Below are positions 52,293-62,649 of a stretch of DNA of 64,000 nt, piece by piece. The notes under the pieces were generated by a model. That model was not told the origin of the DNA. It did not search any database and saw nothing but the letters and a program-made list of their open reading frames with translations. How positions within the stretch are numbered: the first letter of the stretch is position 1; each line of letters opens with the position of its first letter. The position numbers were made by a program, and so were the translations under genes. The DNA comes from Belliella pelovolcani (GTDB lineage: Bacteria; Bacteroidota; Bacteroidia; Cytophagales; Cyclobacteriaceae). The stretch spans positions 248,001 through 312,000 of the forward strand of contig NZ_FTOP01000002.1 in the NCBI RefSeq assembly GCF_900156785.1, written 5' to 3'.

Positions 52293-52323
52293 GACATTGC
52301 CTAAATTATTTAAGACACCTTTC

Positions 52324-53097
52324 ATGCTAACAAACTTTCTTTTACTCTTTTTCACAGCCATGATCGCAGGCGGTCTGGCTTATTTTATTCCCAATTGGCA
52401 AGAGCGTTATTTTAAATTAGTATTGGTTTTTGCAGGGTCCTATCTATTTGCCATCACGGTATTACATATTCTTCCTGAGCTATTTGTAGGGACTGAAGAT
52501 GCCACCAAGATGGGTCTGTATATACTTCTTGGTTTTCTTCTACAACAAGTATTAGAGTTGCTTTCATCTGGAGTGGAGCATGGGCATATTCATCATCATG
52601 GTCATCATCATGGCATAGAGTCAGGGGTATGGACCTTGATGATTGGATTGTTTTTACACGCATTCTTGGAAGGTACCTTACTTTCTCACGATGGAGTGTT
52701 GGTAGCTCACGATCACAGTAATCATGGGCATGACCATCACCACCATCATGGAAGCGGAAATTTACTTTTCGGTATCATGTTGCACAAAGGGCCGGAGGCA
52801 TTTGCGCTGGTTGCTGTACTGATGACGGCTTTGAAAAAAAGATGGGTTTTTGTGCTTTTAATCATTTTTGCTTTGGCCTCTCCACTAGGGATGATTTTGA
52901 GTTCTTTCCTATTCGACACAGAATTTATTGGGAGAGGGGCTCTCAATGTCTTCTATGGTATGGTAGCAGGTGGATTTCTACATATCTCTACTACCATTTT
53001 CTTTGAAAGTAGTCCTGACCATAGGTTTCATTTGAACAAAGTAATCATAAGTATCATTGCCTTTGCCTTGGCTATATCGTTTGAAATGCTTGCTTGA
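52324..53097 (+). CDS. ZIP-family metal permease
   Basis: 257 residues from the ATG at 52324; a TTG at 52297 extends the frame by nine residues. About eight membrane segments. The large cytoplasmic loop is very His-rich (HGHIHHHGHHHGIE and HDHSNHGHDHHHHHG). Core motifs HAFLEGTLLSHDG in segment 4 and HKGPEAFALVAVL in segment 5 hold the His/Glu/Asp metal site of ZIP transporters (the usual order in segment 5 is HxxPE). It moves Zn2+ or a similar ion into the cytosol. Thematically linked to the ZnuD-like receptor at 2068, but far from it. Confidence 0.92.
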   Translation: MLTNFLLLFFTAMIAGGLAYFIPNWQERYFKLVLVFAGSYLFAITVLHILPELFVGTEDATKMGLYILLGFLLQQVLELLSSGVEHGHIHHHGHHHGIESGVWTLMIGLFLHAFLEGTLLSHDGVLVAHDHSNHGHDHHHHHGSGNLLFGIMLHKGPEAFALVAVLMTALKKRWVFVLLIIFALASPLGMILSSFLFDTEFIGRGALNVFYGMVAGGFLHISTTIFFESSPDHRFHLNKVIISIIAFALAISFEMLA

Positions 53098-53233
53098 TCT
53101 TTTAATGTCTGAATTAAGCTCAAAATTCAGTATTATATTTGGTTTCAGGCTTTTGAATATCGAAACTTAGCTATATATTGCTAATAAGTTATACATTCGC
53201 TAAATTGATATATCAAACCCTAAATAACCGGAT

Positions 53234-53656
53234 ATGGAAAAGCCAATCTGTCCAAAATGTGAGCATACAAAAATTGTCAAAAGTGGTATAGTAGGAGGAA
53301 GGCAGCGGTTTAAATGCAAGAAGTGTGGGTATCATTTTACAGTAAATAAACTCGGGAAAGCCATCGACAAATACTATGTAGTCAAGGCGCTTCAGCTGTA
53401 TATCGAAGGAATCTCTTATCGAGAAATCGAAAGAATATTAGGTGTCAGTCACGTATCGGTCATGAATTGGGTGAAGCAATACAAGATCAAAGCACCAGAA
53501 AGCTATGATTACCGGCCTACTTATAAAGTACTCAATCATACTGAATTGGTCAAATTTATGGCGATAAAGGAGAATCTTTTGGATACCGGGATGTTGATCA
53601 CCGAGCTTGGGGACAAATTCATGATTATCAAATGGGAGCGGTTTAAAAACCGATAA
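53234..53656 (+). CDS. Zn-ribbon/HTH protein resembling IS1 InsA, without a transposase domain
   Basis: 140 residues. A zinc ribbon with C6/C9 and C28/C31 (CPKC...CKKC) begins it, as in the N-terminal part of IS1-type transposases (InsA). Residues about 52-84 form a helix-turn-helix (LQLYIEGISYREIERILGVS, followed by HVSVMNWVKQYK). The remaining 55 residues do not carry a DDE catalytic core, and no InsB-like frame or terminal inverted repeats flank it. It lies 136 bp upstream of the porin gene that starts the acetate-type locus, in the same direction. I infer a domesticated DNA-binding protein, possibly the regulator of that locus. It could also be an IS remnant, but the frame is intact. Confidence 0.8.
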   Translation: MEKPICPKCEHTKIVKSGIVGGRQRFKCKKCGYHFTVNKLGKAIDKYYVVKALQLYIEGISYREIERILGVSHVSVMNWVKQYKIKAPESYDYRPTYKVLNHTELVKFMAIKENLLDTGMLITELGDKFMIIKWERFKNR

Positions 53657-53691
53657 GCCAAATAATATTTTTTTTCCTATAGTAACTTAAC

Positions 53692-53731
53692 GCATATGTA
53701 TGCTTGACTTTTCTTTTGTTGGGTAACTTTT
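53692..53731 (+). promoter_or_regulatory. Candidate porin promoter with an upstream palindrome
   Basis: TTG (53704-53706) and TAACTTTT (53724-53731) are 17 bp apart, shorter than the usual 19-20. Directly upstream lies the palindrome GCATATGTATGC (53692-53703), where an activator would sit. A further pair GGTAAC/GTTACC (about 53722 and 53749) could form a leader hairpin before the ATG at 53793. Confidence 0.4.
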
Positions 53732-53792
53732 CAATTTAGACTTCACTTGTTACCGGGCCTGGGCAAGAAAGACAACAATAACCCAAAAAACA

Positions 53793-55244
53793 ATGAAACA
53801 TCATTTCGCATGGCTATTAGGCATGTCTTTGATGATCTCTACTTTCACATTTAGCCAAGCACAGGATACCATTCCTGAGACTATCTTATCTAAACAAAAA
53901 GCTGGAGATTTCATAGACCATACTTATAAGCCACTCACCCTCAAGCTCAGTGATGATGGTTCCAAATATATCAGGTTCCTTTTTTGGAATCAGATGTGGG
54001 CCAGAGTGACAGAAAATAACCCAGGCACAATTGATGTATCTGGCAATCCTCAAGCGACTTCTACTGACATAGGAATCAGGAGAGCAAGGGTCTTAGCTTA
54101 TGCTGAGATTTCTCCAAGATTTCTTATTCTATCCCACTGGGGGATCAACAATCAAACCTTCACCAATGGTGGAGCCCCTGGAGGTGGCTTTACAGGAAAC
54201 CCAGGAGCAATTCCAGTGTCTGTGGATCCATCTACAGGTCAAGGTACTGCATCTGGTATGTCAGCCAAGAAGCCCCAACTCTTCTTCCACGATATCTGGA
54301 CTGAATTTAAGGTGGTTCCAGAGCTTTATGTAGGGATGGGGTTACATTATTGGAATGGTATCTCGAGAATGACCAGCCATAGTACCTTAAACTTTATGGC
54401 TATAGATGCCCCGATTTTCAACTGGCCTCTGATTGAACTTACCGATCAGTTTGCTCGACAGTTTGGTTTTTATGCCAAAGGTCAAGTTGGAAAATGGGAT
54501 TATCGGCTGGCATTGAACAAGCCCTTTTCTATCGGGTCTGGCGGTAGATTTGACGAGGCCAACAATAGGCCTGTGGCGGCCAATGTAGTCAATGATCACT
54601 GGGCTACACAAGGGTATATAGCTTATCAGTTTTTGGAGAAAGAAAATAACAAGCTTCCATTCTTTGTAGGCTCTTATTTGGGTACTAAAAAGGTATTTAA
54701 TATAGGCGGTGGTTGGCATTATCACCCTGAAGCTACAAATTCAAGAAATGCATCTGGGGCAATTCAAAACCATGATATCAAGCTTTTTGGATTGGATACT
54801 TTCTTAGACCTTCCTCTAAACAAAGCTTCAGGCACTGCCCTGACTACTTATGCAGTATTTTACCATTATGACTTTGGACCAAATTACATGCGTAATGTAG
54901 GTATTATGAACGTAGGCTTTGGCGCTGGAACCACGCAAAATGGCCCTGGCAATGCACAGCCCACCATAGGAACTGGGAATATCTTTTACACCCAAAGTGG
55001 ATTTTTACTTCCAAAGGATATTTTGGGGGATAAGGGAAGACTGCAGCCTTTTGGGGCTTTGACTCACAAAAACTTCGAATTCTTCAATGACAGCAGTTGG
55101 CAGTATGATTTGGGGATGAATTATTACATCAATGCCCACCAAGCCAAAGTCACCTTGCAGTATAGCCAAAGACCACTGTTTGAAAACTTCATTAGATCAG
55201 GTTCAGCCGGCGAGTTCATATTACAAACACATATCTTCTTGTAG
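53793..55244 (+). CDS. Outer-membrane porin
   Basis: 483 residues. Signal peptide (LLGMSLMISTFTFSQAQ), then a barrel of amphipathic strands ending in the aromatic QTHIFL typical of outer-membrane insertion. A Gly/Pro-rich loop is at about residues 120-160 (NGGAPGGGFTGNPG). It looks like the phosphate-selective porin/OprP-type or general Bacteroidota porins, but the exact family is not clear. Its place at the head of the DUF4212-symporter operon points to carboxylate passage across the outer membrane (inference). Confidence 0.8.
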   Translation: MKHHFAWLLGMSLMISTFTFSQAQDTIPETILSKQKAGDFIDHTYKPLTLKLSDDGSKYIRFLFWNQMWARVTENNPGTIDVSGNPQATSTDIGIRRARVLAYAEISPRFLILSHWGINNQTFTNGGAPGGGFTGNPGAIPVSVDPSTGQGTASGMSAKKPQLFFHDIWTEFKVVPELYVGMGLHYWNGISRMTSHSTLNFMAIDAPIFNWPLIELTDQFARQFGFYAKGQVGKWDYRLALNKPFSIGSGGRFDEANNRPVAANVVNDHWATQGYIAYQFLEKENNKLPFFVGSYLGTKKVFNIGGGWHYHPEATNSRNASGAIQNHDIKLFGLDTFLDLPLNKASGTALTTYAVFYHYDFGPNYMRNVGIMNVGFGAGTTQNGPGNAQPTIGTGNIFYTQSGFLLPKDILGDKGRLQPFGALTHKNFEFFNDSSWQYDLGMNYYINAHQAKVTLQYSQRPLFENFIRSGSAGEFILQTHIFL

Positions 55245-55266
55245 AAACATTTAAAACCCAATAACC

Positions 55267-55530
55267 ATGTCAGAAAATAAATTCAGTAAAGAAGCCTATT
55301 GGAAAAAGAACCTGAAAATACTCAGTGTACTTCTAGTCATCTGGTTTGTCGTATCCTTCGGATTCGGGATATTACTTGTAGAACCCCTCAATGCCATCCG
55401 CTTGGGAGGCTTTAAGTTAGGATTTTGGTTTGCTCAGCAGGGCTCCATCTACGCATTTGTCGTGTTGATTTTTGTCTATGTAGTTCGCATGAACATGCTC
55501 GACAAGGAATTTGATGTAAATGAAGAATAG
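55267..55530 (+). CDS. DUF4212 small symporter subunit
   Basis: 87 residues with two membrane segments (LSVLLVIWFVVSFGFGILL, IYAFVVLIFVYVVRM) and the family phrase LGGFKLGFWFAQQGS. DUF4212 proteins are always next to a large sodium:solute symporter of the VC_2705 type and are taken to be its small subunit. Lies 22 bp after the porin and 20 bp before the symporter, in one operon. Confidence 0.94.
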   Translation: MSENKFSKEAYWKKNLKILSVLLVIWFVVSFGFGILLVEPLNAIRLGGFKLGFWFAQQGSIYAFVVLIFVYVVRMNMLDKEFDVNEE

Positions 55531-55550
55531 GCCTCTAAACAATAAAAATA

Positions 55551-57254
55551 ATGGATATTTTAACTTGGACATATATTTTAGTGGGCTTATCATTTGCCCT
55601 CTACATAGGAATTGCGATCTACACGAGAGCAGGCTCTACAAAAGAGTTTTATACAGCAGGTGGAGGTGTTTCTCCTCTGGCCAATGGAATGGCTACAGCA
55701 GCAGATTGGATGTCGGCGGCTTCTTTTATCTCCATGGCGGGAATCATTGCTTTCTCTGGATATGATGGCTCTGTTTATCTTATGGGCTGGACTGGTGGTT
55801 ATGTTTTACTTGCCTTATTGCTTGCACCTTATTTGAGGAAATTTGGGAAGTTTACTGTGCCTGACTTCGTTGGAGATCGCTATTATTCCAACAAGGCTCG
55901 TGTAGTCGCTGTAGTTTGTGCGCTATTTATTTCTTTTACTTATGTGGCAGGTCAGATGCGTGGTGTTGGGATCGTATTTTCCAGATACCTTGAAGTAGAT
56001 ATCAATACAGGTGTGATTATCGGGATGTGTATTGTCTTTTTCTATGCAGTACTCGGTGGCATGAAAGGGATCACCTACACCCAAGTAGCACAGTATTGTG
56101 TACTGATCTTTGCTTTTATGGTGCCAGCGATTTTCGTTTCTATGCAGCTTACAGGAAATCCAGTTCCACAAATGGGCCTAGGGAGCACTGTTGCAGATGG
56201 TTCCTACCTTTTAGATAAATTGGATGGTGTATTGGGCGAAATGGGCTTTGCAGCATACACTTCAGGAAGAAAAAGTATGGGAGATATTTTTGCCATTACT
56301 CTGGCACTGATGGTAGGTACGGCTGGATTACCTCATGTGATCGTGAGGTTTTTCACTGTACCAAGGGTAAAAGATGCAAGGTTGTCAGCAGGATATGCTT
56401 TGGTGTTTATTGCCATTCTTTATACCACAGCGCCAGCTGTAGCGGCTTTTGGAATTTACAATGCCATCGAAACAGTAGCAGACAAACCTGTCAATGACCT
56501 ACCAGAATGGGTGAATAATTGGCAAAAAACAAACCTAATCACCGTCAATGACAAAAATCAAGATGGTATTGTTCAGTATACCGCTAACTCAGAAACAAAT
56601 GAATTGAACATAGATAAAGACATCATGGTGCTTGCGAGCCCTGAGATTGCCAAGTTACCAAATTGGGTAATTGGACTTGTAGCAGCAGGCGGGATGGCGG
56701 CAGCGCTTTCCACAGCAGCAGGGTTACTTTTGGTGATTTCTACCTCAGTTTCTAGAGACTTGTTCAGGACTTTTAAGCCTAATATGACTGAGAAAAGAGA
56801 ATTGCTGATCGCTCGAATTTCCGCTGCTGGAGCAGTGGGATTAGCAGGTTACTTTGGTGTAAACCCTCCAGGATTTGTGGCGGAAGTAGTTGCTTTTGCT
56901 TTTGGTTTAGCCGCAGCATCTTTCTTTCCAGTGATCATCATGGGGATTTTTTCGACTAGGATGAACAAAGAAGGGGCTATAGCAGGTATGGTGTCCGGCT
57001 TGGTGTTCACCTTGGCTTACATTACCTTCTTCAAATTTGGTGTAACTTTATTTGGGTTGGCACCTGAGATGGTTTCTTCGGATAATTGGCTCTTTGGAAT
57101 CTCGCCAGAAGGAATTGGAAGTGTTGGGATGTTGGTGAATTTCATAGTTTGTTATTTCGTCTCCAAAGCTACACCTGCACCACCTAAGCAAGTACAGGAT
57201 ATGATTCAAGAGATCAGAATTCCTAGAGGTGCTGGTGCAGCACATGATCATTAA
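55551..57254 (+). CDS. Sodium:solute symporter, acetate/carboxylate type (VC_2705-like)
   Basis: 567 residues, about 13 membrane segments. SSS-family motifs: EFYTAGGGVSPLANGMATAADWMSAASFISMAG in segment 1-2 (in part), GTAGLPHVIVRFFTVP in the middle, and SRDLFRTFKPNM after segment 9. The insert at about 320-360 is hydrophilic. The C-terminus ends in a His-containing tail. It shares its family with ActP (acetate) transporters. Acetate or a similar small monocarboxylate is inferred from the acs and sensor kinase downstream. A hairpin terminator follows. Confidence 0.92.
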   Translation: MDILTWTYILVGLSFALYIGIAIYTRAGSTKEFYTAGGGVSPLANGMATAADWMSAASFISMAGIIAFSGYDGSVYLMGWTGGYVLLALLLAPYLRKFGKFTVPDFVGDRYYSNKARVVAVVCALFISFTYVAGQMRGVGIVFSRYLEVDINTGVIIGMCIVFFYAVLGGMKGITYTQVAQYCVLIFAFMVPAIFVSMQLTGNPVPQMGLGSTVADGSYLLDKLDGVLGEMGFAAYTSGRKSMGDIFAITLALMVGTAGLPHVIVRFFTVPRVKDARLSAGYALVFIAILYTTAPAVAAFGIYNAIETVADKPVNDLPEWVNNWQKTNLITVNDKNQDGIVQYTANSETNELNIDKDIMVLASPEIAKLPNWVIGLVAAGGMAAALSTAAGLLLVISTSVSRDLFRTFKPNMTEKRELLIARISAAGAVGLAGYFGVNPPGFVAEVVAFAFGLAAASFFPVIIMGIFSTRMNKEGAIAGMVSGLVFTLAYITFFKFGVTLFGLAPEMVSSDNWLFGISPEGIGSVGMLVNFIVCYFVSKATPAPPKQVQDMIQEIRIPRGAGAAHDH

Positions 57255-57278
57255 AGTAAATATCGAGGATAATCATTC

Positions 57279-57314
57279 GGGAAGCTCAGACAAGATTGTC
57301 CGGGTTTCCCTTTT
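57279..57314 (+). terminator. Terminator after the symporter gene
   Basis: GGGAAGCTCAGACA and TGTCCGGGTTTCCC form a stem with a few mismatches, followed by TTTT. It separates the transport genes from the sensor genes. Confidence 0.55.
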
Positions 57315-57365
57315 ATCCATCAGACAAATGCCGTAATTTGAAAAGATAAAATCGAGGATATTTAG

Positions 57366-57575
57366 ATGAAGGAAGGATTAAAGAAGCAATATTTATGGGC
57401 AGTGTTTTTTTTAGGAATGTTTTTGCTAAACTATCCTGTGCTGTCAATTTATGATATTCCAGAGGTTTGGTTTGGAATTCCTGTGCTTTACTTCTTTGTG
57501 TTTGCTTTTTGGGTGCTATTGATTGTATTGACTTTCTGGGCAGTAAGAAAATCTGAACGAGATAAGCATGTTTAG
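57366..57575 (+). CDS. Small two-segment membrane protein
   Basis: 69 residues with two membrane segments (WAVFFLGMFLLNYPVL and FFVFAFWVLLIVLTFW) and a basic C-terminus (RKSERDKHV). It overlaps the kinase-fusion gene by 8 bp, so the two are translationally coupled. It is like the small subunits that accompany SSS-type proteins, and may be the companion of the symporter domain in the kinase. No named family recognised with certainty. Confidence 0.75.
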   Translation: MKEGLKKQYLWAVFFLGMFLLNYPVLSIYDIPEVWFGIPVLYFFVFAFWVLLIVLTFWAVRKSERDKHV

Positions 57576-60306
57576 TAATCTGCTGATCATATCGTTTACT
57601 TTTGGCTATTTGGCATTGCTTTTTGCAATCGCTTGGTTTTCTGAGCGTACTGCAAAAAAAGGGCGTAAACTTTCTAATCACCCTGCCATTTATGCTATGA
57701 CCTTGGCGGTCTATTGTACTGCATGGACGTATTATGGTTCAGTTGGGAGAGCAGCTACCAATGGGCTAGAGTTTTTGACAATCTATATCGGACCTAGCTT
57801 GATTGCACCACTTTGGTGGGTCATCATGCGGAAGATTATTCGGATTTCTAAAGTTCAGCGCATATCCTCCATAGCAGATTTCATTTCAAGTAGGTATGGG
57901 AAAAATGTGACCCTTGGAGGAGTGGTGACCATCTTCTGTTTACTTGGGATTTTACCTTATACTTCCATTCAGATAAAGGGCGTAGCTTCCTCTTTTCAGA
58001 TTTTGCAGGAATCTAATGCCACGGAAATTTTGGCGAATATTCCTTTCTATCAAGACACAGCATTTTATCTAGCCATTGGATTGGCATTATTTACTGTACT
58101 CTTTGGTACTAGGGATATAGAAGCTACGGCCCAGCACGAAGGTATGGTGATGGCAGTTGCTTTTGAATCCATCTTTAAGTTGATTGCTTTTTTGGTAGTT
58201 GGGGTATTTGTCAGCTTCATCGTTTTTGATGGTTTTGCGGATATTTTTAGTCAGGCTACGAGCTCTGGCTTGGAACACCTTTTCGTTATGCAAGGGGATA
58301 ATGGCATTTCGGAGTGGTTCTGGATGTCAGTATTATCCATGATGGCAATTTTGTTCCTCCCAAGACAGTTTCAGATGGGAGTGATCGAAAACACCAACGA
58401 GAAACACATAGATACAGCTATGTGGCTATTTCCATTGTACCTTCTTCTGATCAATGTCTTTGTGCTGCCGATTGCCTTGGGAGGGTTAGTTTATTTCCCA
58501 TCTGGAAGTTTTGAAGCAGATACCTTTGTCTTGGCATTTCCTATTGTATTCAATCAAGAGTGGTTGGCTATATTGGTGTATTTGGGTGGATTTTCTGCTG
58601 CCACGGGGATGATCATTGTATCTACCATAGCGCTTAGCACCATGGTAAGTAATAACCTTGTCATGCCTATACTGCTGATCAACGAAAGCTTTCAAAAAAG
58701 ATATCAGCATAGGCTAGGCTATATTTTGATTTGGTCTAGAAGAATTTCAATTTTCCTGATCATTCTAGCTGCGTATTTATACTACAAGCAAGTTGCTGGT
58801 CAATTCACGCTAGTTTCCATTGGTTTGATTTCCTTTGTAGCTATTGCTCAATTTACGCCCGCCATTATCGGTGGTATATTTTGGAAAAAGGGTGCTCGAC
58901 CTGGCGCTTTGGCAGGAATCATCGCTGGTTTTTTAATCTGGTTTTATACCCTAGTGGTGCCTACTATGGTGACGGCAGGATATATTTCTGAGGAATTATT
59001 GACTGAGGGTTTGTTTGGATTAGGTTTTCTCAGACCACAATCTCTATTGGGATTCGATGAAATGAGTTATATCACTCACGGTTTGTTCTTTTCCCTTTCT
59101 ATAAATGCCTTACTTTATGTACTGATCAGCTTATTCACAGTGCAGACCTCCAAGGAACATAATCAAGCGGTGATTTTTGTGGATATTTTCAGATTCAGTA
59201 CTTCGTTGGATGCATCAGTGATTTGGAAAGGGCAGGCATATCTCCCAGACCTAAAAGCTTTATTAGTGAATTTCCTTGGAAGTGAAAAGACCGAAGAGGC
59301 TCTCAATCAATTTATGGCTCAGACGGGGAAGGCATTGAGTCAAAAGAATTTTGCGGATCCTGAATTGGTAAATTATTCGGAGCGTCTACTGTCCGGGATT
59401 ATTGGATCTGCTTCTGCCAGAATTTTAGTATCCTCAGTAGTCAAGGAAGAGGAGATCAGTATGGAGGAAGTATTGGACATTCTCAGGGAGACACAAGAAC
59501 TCAAGTCACTCTATGAAGAACTTAGAGGTAAAAGTGAAGAGTTGAAGCAGGCTTCTGAAAAGTTGCAAGCCATGAATGAGGCACTGCGACTCAACGACAT
59601 GCTCAAGGATGAATTTATCTCTACGGTAACGCACGAAATGAAAACACCGATCACTTCGATCAGAGCATTCTCAGAAATCCTGCTCGATGATGATTTGCCA
59701 GAGTCAGAGCGAAAGAGGTTCCTAGATATTATCATACAGGAAGCCAATCGTATGAGTAGGTTGATAGATCAGGTCTTGGATCTGGAGCGTTTTGATTCTG
59801 GTAGGCAAGAGTTGAACATAGAGCCTACAGATGTAAAAATCTTGATTCTAGAAGCGACAGATTCCATGTATCAGGTGATGAAGGAAAAAGGCTTGGATTT
59901 CACCATTGAGCTGAATTTTGAAGACCTGACGCTTGATCTTGATGAAGATAGAATCAAGCAGGTCATCTTAAATCTGCTTTCTAATGCCTCCAAGTTTGCA
60001 AAATCCAGCGTATCGTTAATAGCCGATGTCAAAGATGGTTTTTTGAGAGTTGTGGTCAAAGATGATGGGAAGGGCATTCCTCAGGAGGAGATTCCGTATA
60101 TATTTGATAAGTTCTTCCAAGCGAAAAATCAAACAAGCAAAAAACCAATCGGCTCAGGTCTTGGCTTGGCGATTTCGAAGAAAATCATCACTTATCACCA
60201 AGGAGAAATAATAGTCAATATAGTGAAAGGAGAAACTTGCTTTGAGTTCTCTTTGCCTGTCAATAAAGATGTTTTGAAATTAAATCAACTAAGTAATCAT
60301 GAGTAA
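57568..60306 (+). CDS. Sodium:solute symporter-histidine kinase fusion (CrbS/CbrA-like sensor)
   Basis: 912 residues. Residues 1 to about 500 form a symporter domain of some 12-13 membrane segments (ISSIADFISSRYGKN, DIEATAQHEGMVMAVAFESI). A linker and coiled coil (about 600-680) lead to a histidine kinase: H689 in FISTVTHEMKTPITSIRAFSE, N box QVILNLLSNASKFA, G1 VKDDGKGIPQEEI, G2 GSGLGLAISKKI. There is no visible PAS domain, which CbrA has. CrbS/CbrA proteins sense (and may move) acetate or histidine-like substrates, and control acs in Vibrio and Pseudomonas. The receiver gene overlaps by 8 bp. Confidence 0.93.
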   Translation: MFSNLLIISFTFGYLALLFAIAWFSERTAKKGRKLSNHPAIYAMTLAVYCTAWTYYGSVGRAATNGLEFLTIYIGPSLIAPLWWVIMRKIIRISKVQRISSIADFISSRYGKNVTLGGVVTIFCLLGILPYTSIQIKGVASSFQILQESNATEILANIPFYQDTAFYLAIGLALFTVLFGTRDIEATAQHEGMVMAVAFESIFKLIAFLVVGVFVSFIVFDGFADIFSQATSSGLEHLFVMQGDNGISEWFWMSVLSMMAILFLPRQFQMGVIENTNEKHIDTAMWLFPLYLLLINVFVLPIALGGLVYFPSGSFEADTFVLAFPIVFNQEWLAILVYLGGFSAATGMIIVSTIALSTMVSNNLVMPILLINESFQKRYQHRLGYILIWSRRISIFLIILAAYLYYKQVAGQFTLVSIGLISFVAIAQFTPAIIGGIFWKKGARPGALAGIIAGFLIWFYTLVVPTMVTAGYISEELLTEGLFGLGFLRPQSLLGFDEMSYITHGLFFSLSINALLYVLISLFTVQTSKEHNQAVIFVDIFRFSTSLDASVIWKGQAYLPDLKALLVNFLGSEKTEEALNQFMAQTGKALSQKNFADPELVNYSERLLSGIIGSASARILVSSVVKEEEISMEEVLDILRETQELKSLYEELRGKSEELKQASEKLQAMNEALRLNDMLKDEFISTVTHEMKTPITSIRAFSEILLDDDLPESERKRFLDIIIQEANRMSRLIDQVLDLERFDSGRQELNIEPTDVKILILEATDSMYQVMKEKGLDFTIELNFEDLTLDLDEDRIKQVILNLLSNASKFAKSSVSLIADVKDGFLRVVVKDDGKGIPQEEIPYIFDKFFQAKNQTSKKPIGSGLGLAISKKIITYHQGEIIVNIVKGETCFEFSLPVNKDVLKLNQLSNHE

Positions 60307-60655
60307 AATATTGATCGTAGACGATGAACCCAATATCCTCTTGTCCTTAGAATACCTTTTCAAGAAAGAGGGTTTTCAGGTCTTTATAGCAAGAGATGGA
60401 GAGGAAGCGTTGGGGATTGTGGAGGAAGATCTTCCTGAATTGGTGATCTTGGATATCATGATGCCCAAGGTAGATGGCTATGAAGTATGCAAATACATCA
60501 GGCAAAAAAGTGATGCAGTGAAGGTCGTCTTTCTCACAGCCAAAAGTAAGCAGAAGGATATTGAAAAAGGACTAGGGCTTGGTGCCGACCTATACCTGAC
60601 CAAGCCATTTGGCAACAAAGACCTAGTAAGTAAAGTCAAGGGACTTCTAGACTAA
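60299..60655 (+). CDS. Receiver-only response regulator
   Basis: 118 residues, a single REC domain: acidic D8/D9 (LIVDDEP), phospho-acceptor D52 (LDIMMPK), T80 and K102 (TKPFG). There is no DNA-binding or enzymatic output domain; the gene ends at a clear stop after LLD. It overlaps the kinase gene by 8 bp and is therefore its partner. Other CrbR regulators carry a LuxR-type helix-turn-helix; this one must act through another protein (inference). Confidence 0.95.
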   Translation: MSKILIVDDEPNILLSLEYLFKKEGFQVFIARDGEEALGIVEEDLPELVILDIMMPKVDGYEVCKYIRQKSDAVKVVFLTAKSKQKDIEKGLGLGADLYLTKPFGNKDLVSKVKGLLD

Positions 60656-60681
60656 TCATTCAGATTCTAAAATCTTAATTC

Positions 60682-60697
60682 ACCCCGACACCTCGGG
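60682..60697. repeat. CCCCGA palindrome before acs
   Basis: CCCCGA-cacc-TCGGGG is a short GC-rich hairpin in an AT-rich gap. Around it ATCTTAA and AATCTTAAAT-like words recur several times up to the acs start. This looks like a small dispersed repeat and not a T-run terminator. Confidence 0.45.
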
Positions 60698-60756
60698 GCA
60701 AAAATCAATAATCTAAAATCTTAAATCATAAATCTTAAATTCAAAATAACCATACC

Positions 60757-62649
60757 ATGAGTGATAGAATACATACCCTCAGCGGGTACTTCCATGAATA
60801 CCAGAAATCAGTGACACAGCCTGAAGAGTTTTGGGCGAGAATCGCGGACTCTTTCCATTGGAGAAAAAGATGGGATAAGGTGCTCGATTGGAATTTTGAA
60901 GAGCCTAATGTGAATTGGTTTGTCAATGGCAAATTGAATATTACCGAAAATATACTCGAGCGACACCTGTTCACCATTGGAGACAGACCTGCGATTATCT
61001 GGGAGCCAAACGATCCCAACGAAGCCGGAAGGACGATTACTTACAAAGATCTTTACCATGAAGTTTGTAAATTTTCCAATGCCCTCAAAGCAAAAGGTAT
61101 AGGCAAAGGAGATAAGGTGATCATCTACATGCCGATGGTTCCTGAAGCTGCAGTAGCGATGTTAGCTTGTGCTAGGATTGGTGCTATTCATTCTGTTGTT
61201 TTTGCAGGATTTAGCTCTTCGGCTTTGTCTGACAGAATCATCGATTGTGGTGCAAAAGCTGTCTTGACATCTGACGGGAATTTCCGAGGGAATAAAAAAA
61301 TACCTGTCAAAGCTGTGGTAGACGAAGCCATGGAAAAAGCTCCTGTAGAAACGGTCATCGTCTATCAGCGAACCAATCAGGAAGTGAATATGAAAGCTGG
61401 GAGAGACCATTGGTGGCATGATGTCATCGAAGGTGTAGCGGATACGAATAAAGCTGAGGAGATGGATAGTGAGGATATGCTATTTATTCTTTACACCTCG
61501 GGCTCCACGGGTAAGCCAAAAGGTGTAGTCCATACCACTGGAGGTTATATGGTTTACTCCAAATATTCATTTGAAAATGTATTTCAGTATTCTCCCGGTG
61601 ATGTCTATTGGTGTACTGCCGACATAGGTTGGATCACAGGTCACTCTTACATTGTATATGGACCTCTTTTGGCAGGAGGGACTTCCCTGATGTTTGAAGG
61701 TGTGCCTACATTCCCTGATGCGGGTAGATTTTGGGCTGTGGTAGAGAAGTACAAGGTGAATATTTTCTACACTGCACCTACAGCTATTCGTGCGCTACAA
61801 GCATATGGTACCGACCCGATCGAGCCTTATGACTTGAGTTCGCTGAAGGTCCTTGGATCCGTAGGAGAACCTATCAACGAAGAAGCTTGGCATTGGTATC
61901 ATACACACATTGGCAAGTCAAGATGTCCTATCGTTGATACTTGGTGGCAGACTGAAACAGGTGGGATGATGGTTTCACCATTAGCAGGTATCACACCTAC
62001 CAAGCCTGCTTATGCGACTTTGCCACTTCCAGGAATTCAGCTGTGTATTGTAGATGCAGAAGGGAAGGAATTGACAGGGAATTCAGTGGAGGGGAATCTT
62101 TGCATCAAATTTCCATGGCCTGGGATGATCCGAACTACCTATGGTGATCACGAACGCTGCAAGCAAACGTATTTCTCTACCTACAAAAACATGTATTTTA
62201 CAGGTGATGGCGTCAAGCGCGATCATGATGGCTATTATCGAATTCTCGGTAGAGTAGATGATGTGATCAATGTGTCAGGCCATAGAATGGGCACCGCAGA
62301 AGTAGAAAACGCCATCAACGAGCATCCACTGGTAATCGAGTCTGCAGTAGTTGGCTATCCTCACGAAGTCAAAGGTCAGGGAATCTATGCCTATGTCATC
62401 TGTGATATGAAAAATAGAACAGCTGAGAACCTTACCAATGAAATCAAGGATACCGTGTCCAAGATCATTGGGCCAATTGCCAAACCAGATAAGATTCAGA
62501 TTGTATCAGGCCTTCCTAAAACCAGATCAGGCAAAATCATGCGTAGAATTCTGAGAAAAGTCGCAGAAGGAACTGTCGACAACCTCGGAGATACTTCTAC
62601 CCTCCTCGATCCTGAAGTGGTGAAGGAGATTATCGAAGGCAGACTATAA
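60757..62649 (+). CDS. acsA: Acetyl-CoA synthetase
   Basis: 630 residues. It activates acetate with ATP to acetyl-AMP and then to acetyl-CoA. Motifs: the phosphate loop YTSGSTGKPKG, TADIGWITGHSYIVYGPL, VDTWWQTETGGMMVSP (acetate pocket with Trp), and the A10 lysine K593 in RSGKIMRRILRK, the usual site of regulatory acetylation. Length and N-terminus (FHEYQKSVTQPEEFWARIA) are typical. Downstream of the CrbS-like pair, which controls acs in other phyla. Confidence 0.97.
   Translation: MSDRIHTLSGYFHEYQKSVTQPEEFWARIADSFHWRKRWDKVLDWNFEEPNVNWFVNGKLNITENILERHLFTIGDRPAIIWEPNDPNEAGRTITYKDLYHEVCKFSNALKAKGIGKGDKVIIYMPMVPEAAVAMLACARIGAIHSVVFAGFSSSALSDRIIDCGAKAVLTSDGNFRGNKKIPVKAVVDEAMEKAPVETVIVYQRTNQEVNMKAGRDHWWHDVIEGVADTNKAEEMDSEDMLFILYTSGSTGKPKGVVHTTGGYMVYSKYSFENVFQYSPGDVYWCTADIGWITGHSYIVYGPLLAGGTSLMFEGVPTFPDAGRFWAVVEKYKVNIFYTAPTAIRALQAYGTDPIEPYDLSSLKVLGSVGEPINEEAWHWYHTHIGKSRCPIVDTWWQTETGGMMVSPLAGITPTKPAYATLPLPGIQLCIVDAEGKELTGNSVEGNLCIKFPWPGMIRTTYGDHERCKQTYFSTYKNMYFTGDGVKRDHDGYYRILGRVDDVINVSGHRMGTAEVENAINEHPLVIESAVVGYPHEVKGQGIYAYVICDMKNRTAENLTNEIKDTVSKIIGPIAKPDKIQIVSGLPKTRSGKIMRRILRKVAEGTVDNLGDTSTLLDPEVVKEIIEGRL

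Follow-up and report, generated by a model that had tools for sequence, protein, structure and literature searches.

The window, a 64,000-nucleotide stretch of the 4.1-Mb Belliella genome, contains a run of eight plus-strand genes. In order, they encode a ZIP-family metal transporter, an InsA-like protein, a porin, a DUF4212 protein, a VC_2705-type symporter, a histidine kinase, a stand-alone receiver, and acetate--CoA ligase (acs). The spacings from the InsA-like gene to acs are 136, 22, 20, 313, -8, and 101 bp. The preliminary description had reported, within one acetate-type locus, an intact 140-aa protein of the IS1 InsA type, a CrbS-like symporter-kinase, and a receiver lacking an output domain, and all three were found where it had placed them (Table 1). 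The ZIP gene, located at positions 52297-53097, precedes the InsA-like gene; a ZIP match lies near the InsA-like gene in 19 of the best 80 loci among at least 583 matches.

Table 1. Genes and candidate regulatory sites of the acetate locus (positions in the window)
Feature	Position	Strand	Remarks
Tandem operator candidate, TTGCTAATAAGTTATAC / TCGCTAAATTGATATAT	53178..53213	+	Period of 19 bp; 20 bp upstream of the start codon of the InsA-like gene
InsA-like Zn-ribbon/HTH protein, 140 aa, without InsB half	53234..53656	+	Profile matches, ortholog comparison
Operator candidate before porin, reverse-oriented	53677..53693	-	Weak: PWM 3.6, below threshold
Candidate promoter -7 element, TAACTTTT	53724..53731	+	Distance to the inner edge of the porin-side site, 31 bp; suggestive only
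Porin, ExtI-like	53793..55244	+	Below NCBIfam cut-off; no Pfam match
DUF4212 small symporter subunit	55267..55530	+	TIGR03647
VC_2705-family sodium/solute symporter	55551..57254	+	TIGR03648
SLC5-type histidine kinase, CrbS/CbrA-like, 912 aa	57568..60306	+	No fused receiver found
Stand-alone receiver, 118 aa	60299..60655	+	Overlaps the kinase stop by 8 bp
acs, acetate--CoA ligase	60757..62649	+	TIGR02188

The InsA-like protein passed the Pfam cut-off for HTH_23, HTH_28, and, barely, Terminase_5, and the Pfam Zn-ribbon models were below it. Among NCBIfam models, the IS1/IS1595 and IS256 Zn-binding domains were over the cut-off. The longest NCBIfam match, to IS1 transposase over residues 6-114, was below the cut-off, and because of it the gene could be mistaken for an IS1 transposase. 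The catalytic InsB/DDE half is absent, since the reading frame stops at residue 140 and the next gene encodes the porin. The missing InsB half, the single copy of the gene in the Belliella genome, and the conserved synteny speak against a mobile IS1 element at this locus. Residues 88-140 form a conserved segment, and the longest of the 20 plasmid IS1-type matches listed extend to residue 134 of the InsA-like protein. Phage records contained no match to it. Its AlphaFold model (pLDDT 82.8, pTM 0.57) yielded only weak AsnC/Lrp-type matches in Foldseek, and a profile search of the PDB was also weak (best E 0.011). Across families, the InsA-like proteins share 57-100% identity in a conserved gene order; in six pairs dN was 0.03-0.07, and dS was 2.5 in one pair and not computable in five. 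Judged by these comparisons, the gene has the properties of a domesticated regulator, namely purifying selection and inheritance without mobility.

The N-terminal part of the kinase (residues 5-467) matches the PDB entry 10ed_A, named "histidine kinase" (E 4e-70), which in our reading is an SLC5-type kinase such as CbrA; the Pfam SSF model gave no match to the kinase at E 0.01. The receiver contains the acid pair D8-D9, D52, T80, and K102. The locus is similar to the CrbS/CrbR (MxtR/ErdR) system in that an SLC5-type kinase adjoins acetate genes and acs, and control of acs is predicted from this adjacency. It differs in that the kinase has no fused receiver and the receiver lacks a LuxR output. 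Control of acs could instead lie with a full-length CrbR-type response regulator encoded elsewhere, leaving the InsA-like protein an accessory; according to the preliminary description, such a regulator would have spoken against its proposal. The 67 receiver-domain matches across the Belliella genome, many of them in long frames, speak for such a regulator, but at the locus itself a receiver-only protein is found instead of a LuxR-type response regulator, and we consider this arrangement improbable.

The distribution of the InsA-like protein was analyzed in 146 related genomes, including that of Belliella. A single strong ortholog (E below 1e-50, 57-100% identity) is present in each of 44 genomes; the next matches had E values of 3e-29 or weaker, and we treat them as IS1 relatives. 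The kinase N-terminus was found in 42 genomes, all of them among the 44, and the remaining two (G116 and G120) have the InsA-like gene and acs and lack the kinase. The surroundings of the other InsA-like orthologs were covered by 43 stretches, each of 11-18 kb, and 35 of these contain the kinase. In five genomes (G077, G101, G111, G117, and G140) it lies either on a different contig from the InsA-like gene or at a distance of some 18 kb or more, and in a sixth (G009) the two are split between contigs. Since unlinked kinases still co-occur with the InsA-like protein, linkage alone does not explain the association.

The same pattern was observed in wider samples, in which the best 10 or 3 candidates were scored per genome, so that absences are slightly soft. 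In the 385 genomes of the host order, the InsA-like protein was found in 134 (including G137, a weak IS-like match), the kinase in 116, and both in 114; the only two kinases without an InsA-like protein, in G616 (a genome 86% complete) and G618, share 38-41% identity with the query. Fisher p values for the co-occurrence, with kinship ignored, were 1e-34 and 1e-73. A phylum sample of 395 comprised 28 genomes with both genes and 13 with the kinase only. All 13 are outside the host class, and inside it 28 of 28 kinase genomes have the InsA-like protein. Strong InsA-like matches without a kinase match occurred in G116 and G428, the latter outside the host class and represented by a 4-kb contig with the porin, DUF4212, and symporter genes. 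A kinase lies within 10 kb in 65 of the best 80 InsA-like loci among at least 583 confirmed matches, several of them on short contigs. Counts for these 80 loci include weak cross-hits (a kinase of 43 bits, discounted here, a few receivers of 29-35% identity, and acyl-CoA ligases of 38-41% identity). acs was found in 33 of 34 genomes searched that lack the InsA-like protein. According to the preliminary description, a protein scattered away from these genes or residing in intact IS elements would have spoken against its proposal; the protein was tied to the locus, and no intact IS was found around it. Taken together, the genome comparison shows synteny and co-occurrence and supports an association of the InsA-like protein with the acetate locus far beyond chance.

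A motif, TTGCTAA-N5-TATA, usually repeated at 19 bp, is located upstream of the InsA-like gene. First spotted by eye and counted afterwards, it was present before the gene in 105 of 123 loci (93 of 111 without duplicates) versus 0.35 in shuffles. A 17-bp matrix trained on the InsA-side sites was then applied to 54 representatives of the 123 loci, with the 95% shuffle level as the threshold. Upstream of the InsA-like gene 50 of 54 regions exceeded it, all on the plus strand, although this is the training set and therefore not independent. The threshold was also exceeded at 19 of 38 porins and 12 of 41 acs genes, in both cases on the minus strand only, and at 3 of 23 DUF4212 and 1 of 37 kinase genes; six of the 12 acs sites fall in a region common to acs and a divergent insA. 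Inverted copies of the motif thus often flank the InsA-like gene, in tandem before it and reversed before porin or acs. In the window, the tandem copies (PWM 15.4 and 22.3 with the matrix derived from the relatives' sites) are the two best matches in 64 kb, and they form the sole tandem match at up to 2 mismatches in the Belliella genome; no site was found by the matrix upstream of acs in the window. In a comparison by eye, the motif, a direct repeat, differs from the ACTU motif of PMC5715377, which is an inverted repeat.

Genomes were searched with the tandem form only because the single-site pattern was at chance (18 matches, 19 in the control). The tandem site with 0-1 mismatch was found in 35 of 44 genomes with the InsA-like gene versus none of 36 without it, and stray tandem matches with 2 mismatches numbered 10 versus 8 in a reversed-pattern control (80 genomes). 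At the 13 kinase loci outside the host class the best motif score was 10.3. In G111 and G140, the InsA-like gene lies away from the locus and the 250 bp upstream of it are free of the motif, and the tandem motif is retained before the porin of the kinase-receiver-acs locus; this separates the candidate operator from the gene.

The acs gene is divergent and about 100-200 bp from the InsA-like gene in L102, L105, L110, L117, L122, and similar loci, of the Chitinophagaceae type and some others, so that a single candidate operator pair sits in the interval separating the two; at all 11 of the 11 loci with divergent insA and acs, the site is common to both. Where acs heads its own unit, a site was found in 6 of 21 distinct loci versus 4 of 47 for acs following the receiver (Fisher p 0.058), which weakly favors a site at acs as the head of its own unit. 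A cruder first count (17 of 33 versus 4 of 56), which put 17 low-identity acs matches aside, did not separate the shared insA regions. The sequence TAnnTTT, which we take to be the -7 promoter consensus, occurs at a distance of 31-33 or 41-43 bp from the site upstream of acs in 9 of 21 regions and upstream of the porin in 8 of 56, compared with shuffle means of 1.1 and 1.7 and maxima of 4 and 5, respectively. These distances had first been spotted by eye and were tested afterwards, and a number of the acs regions also belong to insA. Overall, the matrix and pattern searches support candidate operator sites before the InsA-like gene and, in part of the genomes, before porin or acs.

The motif could also be a fossil transposon end or a part of the insA promoter, with the InsA-like protein at most regulating itself and the locus inherited as a block. 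The motif is strongest before insA, few acs sites lie outside the shared regions (6 of 21), and IS1 InsA is a known autorepressor (PMC12428005). Against this, the porin motif persists in the two genomes from which insA has moved away, sites at 19 of 38 porins are on one strand, the co-occurrence also holds for unlinked kinases, and upstream of acs in 30 genomes without the InsA-like gene only 2 sites scored above 4.8 and none above 15. We regard this reading as improbable.

The origin of the sites was sought in 15 loci of IS1 relatives. In three of them, from the host order or phylum (L206, L209, and L217), an InsA frame is accompanied by a shifted InsB-like frame, as read by eye, and the InsA frame of L206 contains a stop. 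A search for inverted repeats around the gene revealed candidates in seven loci. Those of L206 (GGCATTGTTAATTTAATATAG), L217 (GGCATTGTTAATTAGTTATAG), and L209 (GGTGTTGTTACTTAAGTATAG) resemble the operator, with the motif starting at base 5 in all six ends; letter permutation matched the observed end scores in 1-97 of 50,000 trials. The candidate repeats of L210, L212, L214, and L215 have no likeness to the operator. In a plain matrix scan of the 15 loci, five (L204, L206, L210, L217, and L218) beat at least 95 of 100 shuffles; L209 reached 89, and the other nine were also short of 95. Target duplications of 8 bp were read by eye at L206 and L209.

Twelve further plasmid records were taken from the 20 matches listed, two of them near-identical Tenacibaculum copies. 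The annotated Tenacibaculum IS1 end GGCATTGCTAATTTAATATAG is operator-like, with a score of 22.5, and the other end scored 9.7. The ends scored 14.6 and 2.8 in Methylobacter and 5.5 and 3.7 in Microcystis; in the remaining records of the 12 the scores were 0.4 or lower, or no repeat was found. The E. coli IS1 ends were rejected as a match to the operator, none being present within the first 24 bases. The inverted copies around the InsA-like gene match the inner parts of the nearest IS1 ends but lack the outer GGCA, and in the window the right-hand copy is weak. The E. coli InsA repressor binds both IS1 ends, and the promoter overlaps the left end (IRL), according to PMC12428005. Given the motif and its likeness to IS ends seen in this comparison, it is likely that a regulator and the ends of its IS were retained together.

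At L210 (1320-1810, G069:C14), in a genome that lacks the ortholog of the acetate locus, a divergent 129-aa InsA-like ORF has strong motif copies on both sides (21.8 and 18.8, on opposite strands) and precedes a gene resembling by eye a PD40-type protein. It is perhaps a second, independent domestication.

The preliminary description had suggested the InsA-like protein as the missing output of the receiver. Its part as a regulator of the locus is supported by the co-occurrence and the sites, and its part as the receiver's output is less secure. Besides the near absence of kinases without the InsA-like protein inside the class, the latter draws on genomes without the kinase. In the order, 19 genomes with the InsA-like protein lack it (G137 left out). 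A receiver query picked out a short receiver-only type, with E values up to 5e-29 and frames of 119-150 aa, which a modest E-value gap and its frame length set apart from the next receivers (E at least 4e-27, in long frames except for one weak 137-aa case); this type is present in 4 of these genomes and absent from 15. In three of the four the receiver is near the InsA-like gene, together with DUF4212, symporter, and acs genes in G660, with an MFS-like transporter (identified by eye) and acs in G711, and in G657 with an MFS-like transporter plus a ligase that resembles acs at only 39% identity.

The C-terminal tail of the InsA-like protein changes with the receiver. Residue 137 was recounted on 111 distinct loci because the first count took some genomes twice; in the kinase-positive loci whose tail could be read, it is F or L in 95 of 95. 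All four genomes that have the receiver but no kinase show F or Y at this position, whereas of the 15 receiver-less genomes only 1 shows F, L, or Y and the other 14 have an altered tail. At the 54 alignment columns that are at least 95% conserved in kinase-positive loci (the first count omitted 15 loci with the kinase outside the stretch), the share of changed cells in the receiver-less genomes was 23% within residues 88-140, compared with 2.4% for the Zn ribbon and 4.8% across the HTH part; the effective sample is small because these 15 genomes fall into about four groups by family and genus codes. A mirror-tree analysis of 29 of the 54 representatives gave no special InsA-receiver signal (partial 0.13).

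The two partners also occur separately. One genus of nine genomes has the InsA-like gene and acs with neither kinase nor receiver, and all nine, including G120, have sites on both sides of the InsA-like gene; this minimal arrangement says that the predicted regulator can do without the receiver. Outside the host class, a receiver match (42-53% identity) was found at the locus in 12 of 13 genomes with the kinase, in nine of them as a short gene after the kinase. The kinase-receiver pair is therefore not bound to the InsA-like protein and, as these gene contents say, can do without it. Both observations fit recruitment of one by the other, and they also fit two partly independent inputs. The genes near the outside-class receivers differ: L154 and L156 have one for a PAS-domain protein, L161 has one for a protein of 717 aa containing an exonuclease domain, and those of L159 and L166 have no Pfam family. 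They may represent alternative outputs of this kinase-receiver pair. The kinase genes G794:C10:123140-125056 and G805:C1:1789177-1791119 have an in-frame stop or split frames, and the InsA-like match in both genomes has no stop.

It is conceivable that the InsA-like protein regulates the acetate genes alone, through its amount or a small molecule, and that the receiver is the detached receiver of a hybrid CrbS-type kinase, a phosphate sink, or a relay to another regulator. The InsA-acs units, which retain their sites without kinase or receiver, and the outside-class receivers next to kinases are in line with this, as is the fused C-terminal receiver of unknown role in gammaproteobacterial CrbS/MxtR (PMC7918813). 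Such independence nevertheless appears rather unlikely, considering that inside the class the kinase almost never occurs without the InsA-like protein, that three kinase-less genomes keep the receiver close to it, and that its tail changes upon receiver loss. For an action of the receiver on the InsA-like protein, the co-occurrence and the tail change suggest a chance of even or slightly better.

The best explanation, which we hold to be reasonably probable, is that a domesticated IS1 InsA with both IS ends regulates the acetate locus and the kinase and receiver set its activity; its likelihood was put slightly lower than it might have been because much of the evidence for acs sites is common with insA. 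An IS would have lost its catalytic InsB half and retained InsA and both transposon ends, the left end becoming the operator before insA and the right end that before the porin or, in some lineages, acs. We infer that the InsA-like protein binds these sites; like IS1 InsA at the left end of its element, it is probably an autorepressor. Activation on the porin/acs side is a guess, drawn from the candidate -7 element that follows the site at a distance of about 31 or 42 bp on its downstream side, and is a weak indication. The SLC5 kinase and the loose receiver would probably set the activity of the InsA-like protein, with the receiver probably touching its C-terminal segment (residues 88-140, tail WERF). 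In such a system the response regulator would be divided between two proteins, the free receiver and a DNA-binding partner of transposase origin. The complete sequence of events, in which an IS became a circuit with InsA as the kinase-receiver output and the ends as operators, the left for autorepression and the right for activation, has nearly an even chance.

Like the IS1 family (InsA / InsAB'), the locus encodes a Zn-ribbon and HTH protein, the inverted repeats of the nearest IS1 resemble the operators, and InsA-type autoregulation is expected. Unlike IS1 elements, it has no InsB half, is present in a single copy with synteny conserved across families, and has sites in tandem before insA and beside porin or acs. 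TldR, which derives from TnpB, is a mobile-element DNA-binding protein reused as a regulator. Host transcription factors derived from mobile elements also include SfsB, related to Mu Ner (PMC8987985). The InsA-like protein would resemble both as a mobile-element DNA-binding protein turned regulator, and the locus differs from them in keeping the protein together with both transposon ends, beside a kinase-receiver pair. In the titles and abstract openings listed from the open-licence literature we found no description of an InsA-like regulator of acetate genes, and nothing was found in this literature on DUF4212 with acetate and symporter.

One half of a jumping gene and its two DNA ends appear, from the genome comparison, to have been kept as a dedicated switch of acetate genes in a large bacterial group, and the InsA-like protein is a candidate for the control of acetate use across a large part of the host class. 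If true, this would be a traceable bacterial case of a transposon protein and its binding sites co-opted together, explaining how a new regulator gains its operators at once, and it would offer a concrete answer to what an output-less receiver may act on.
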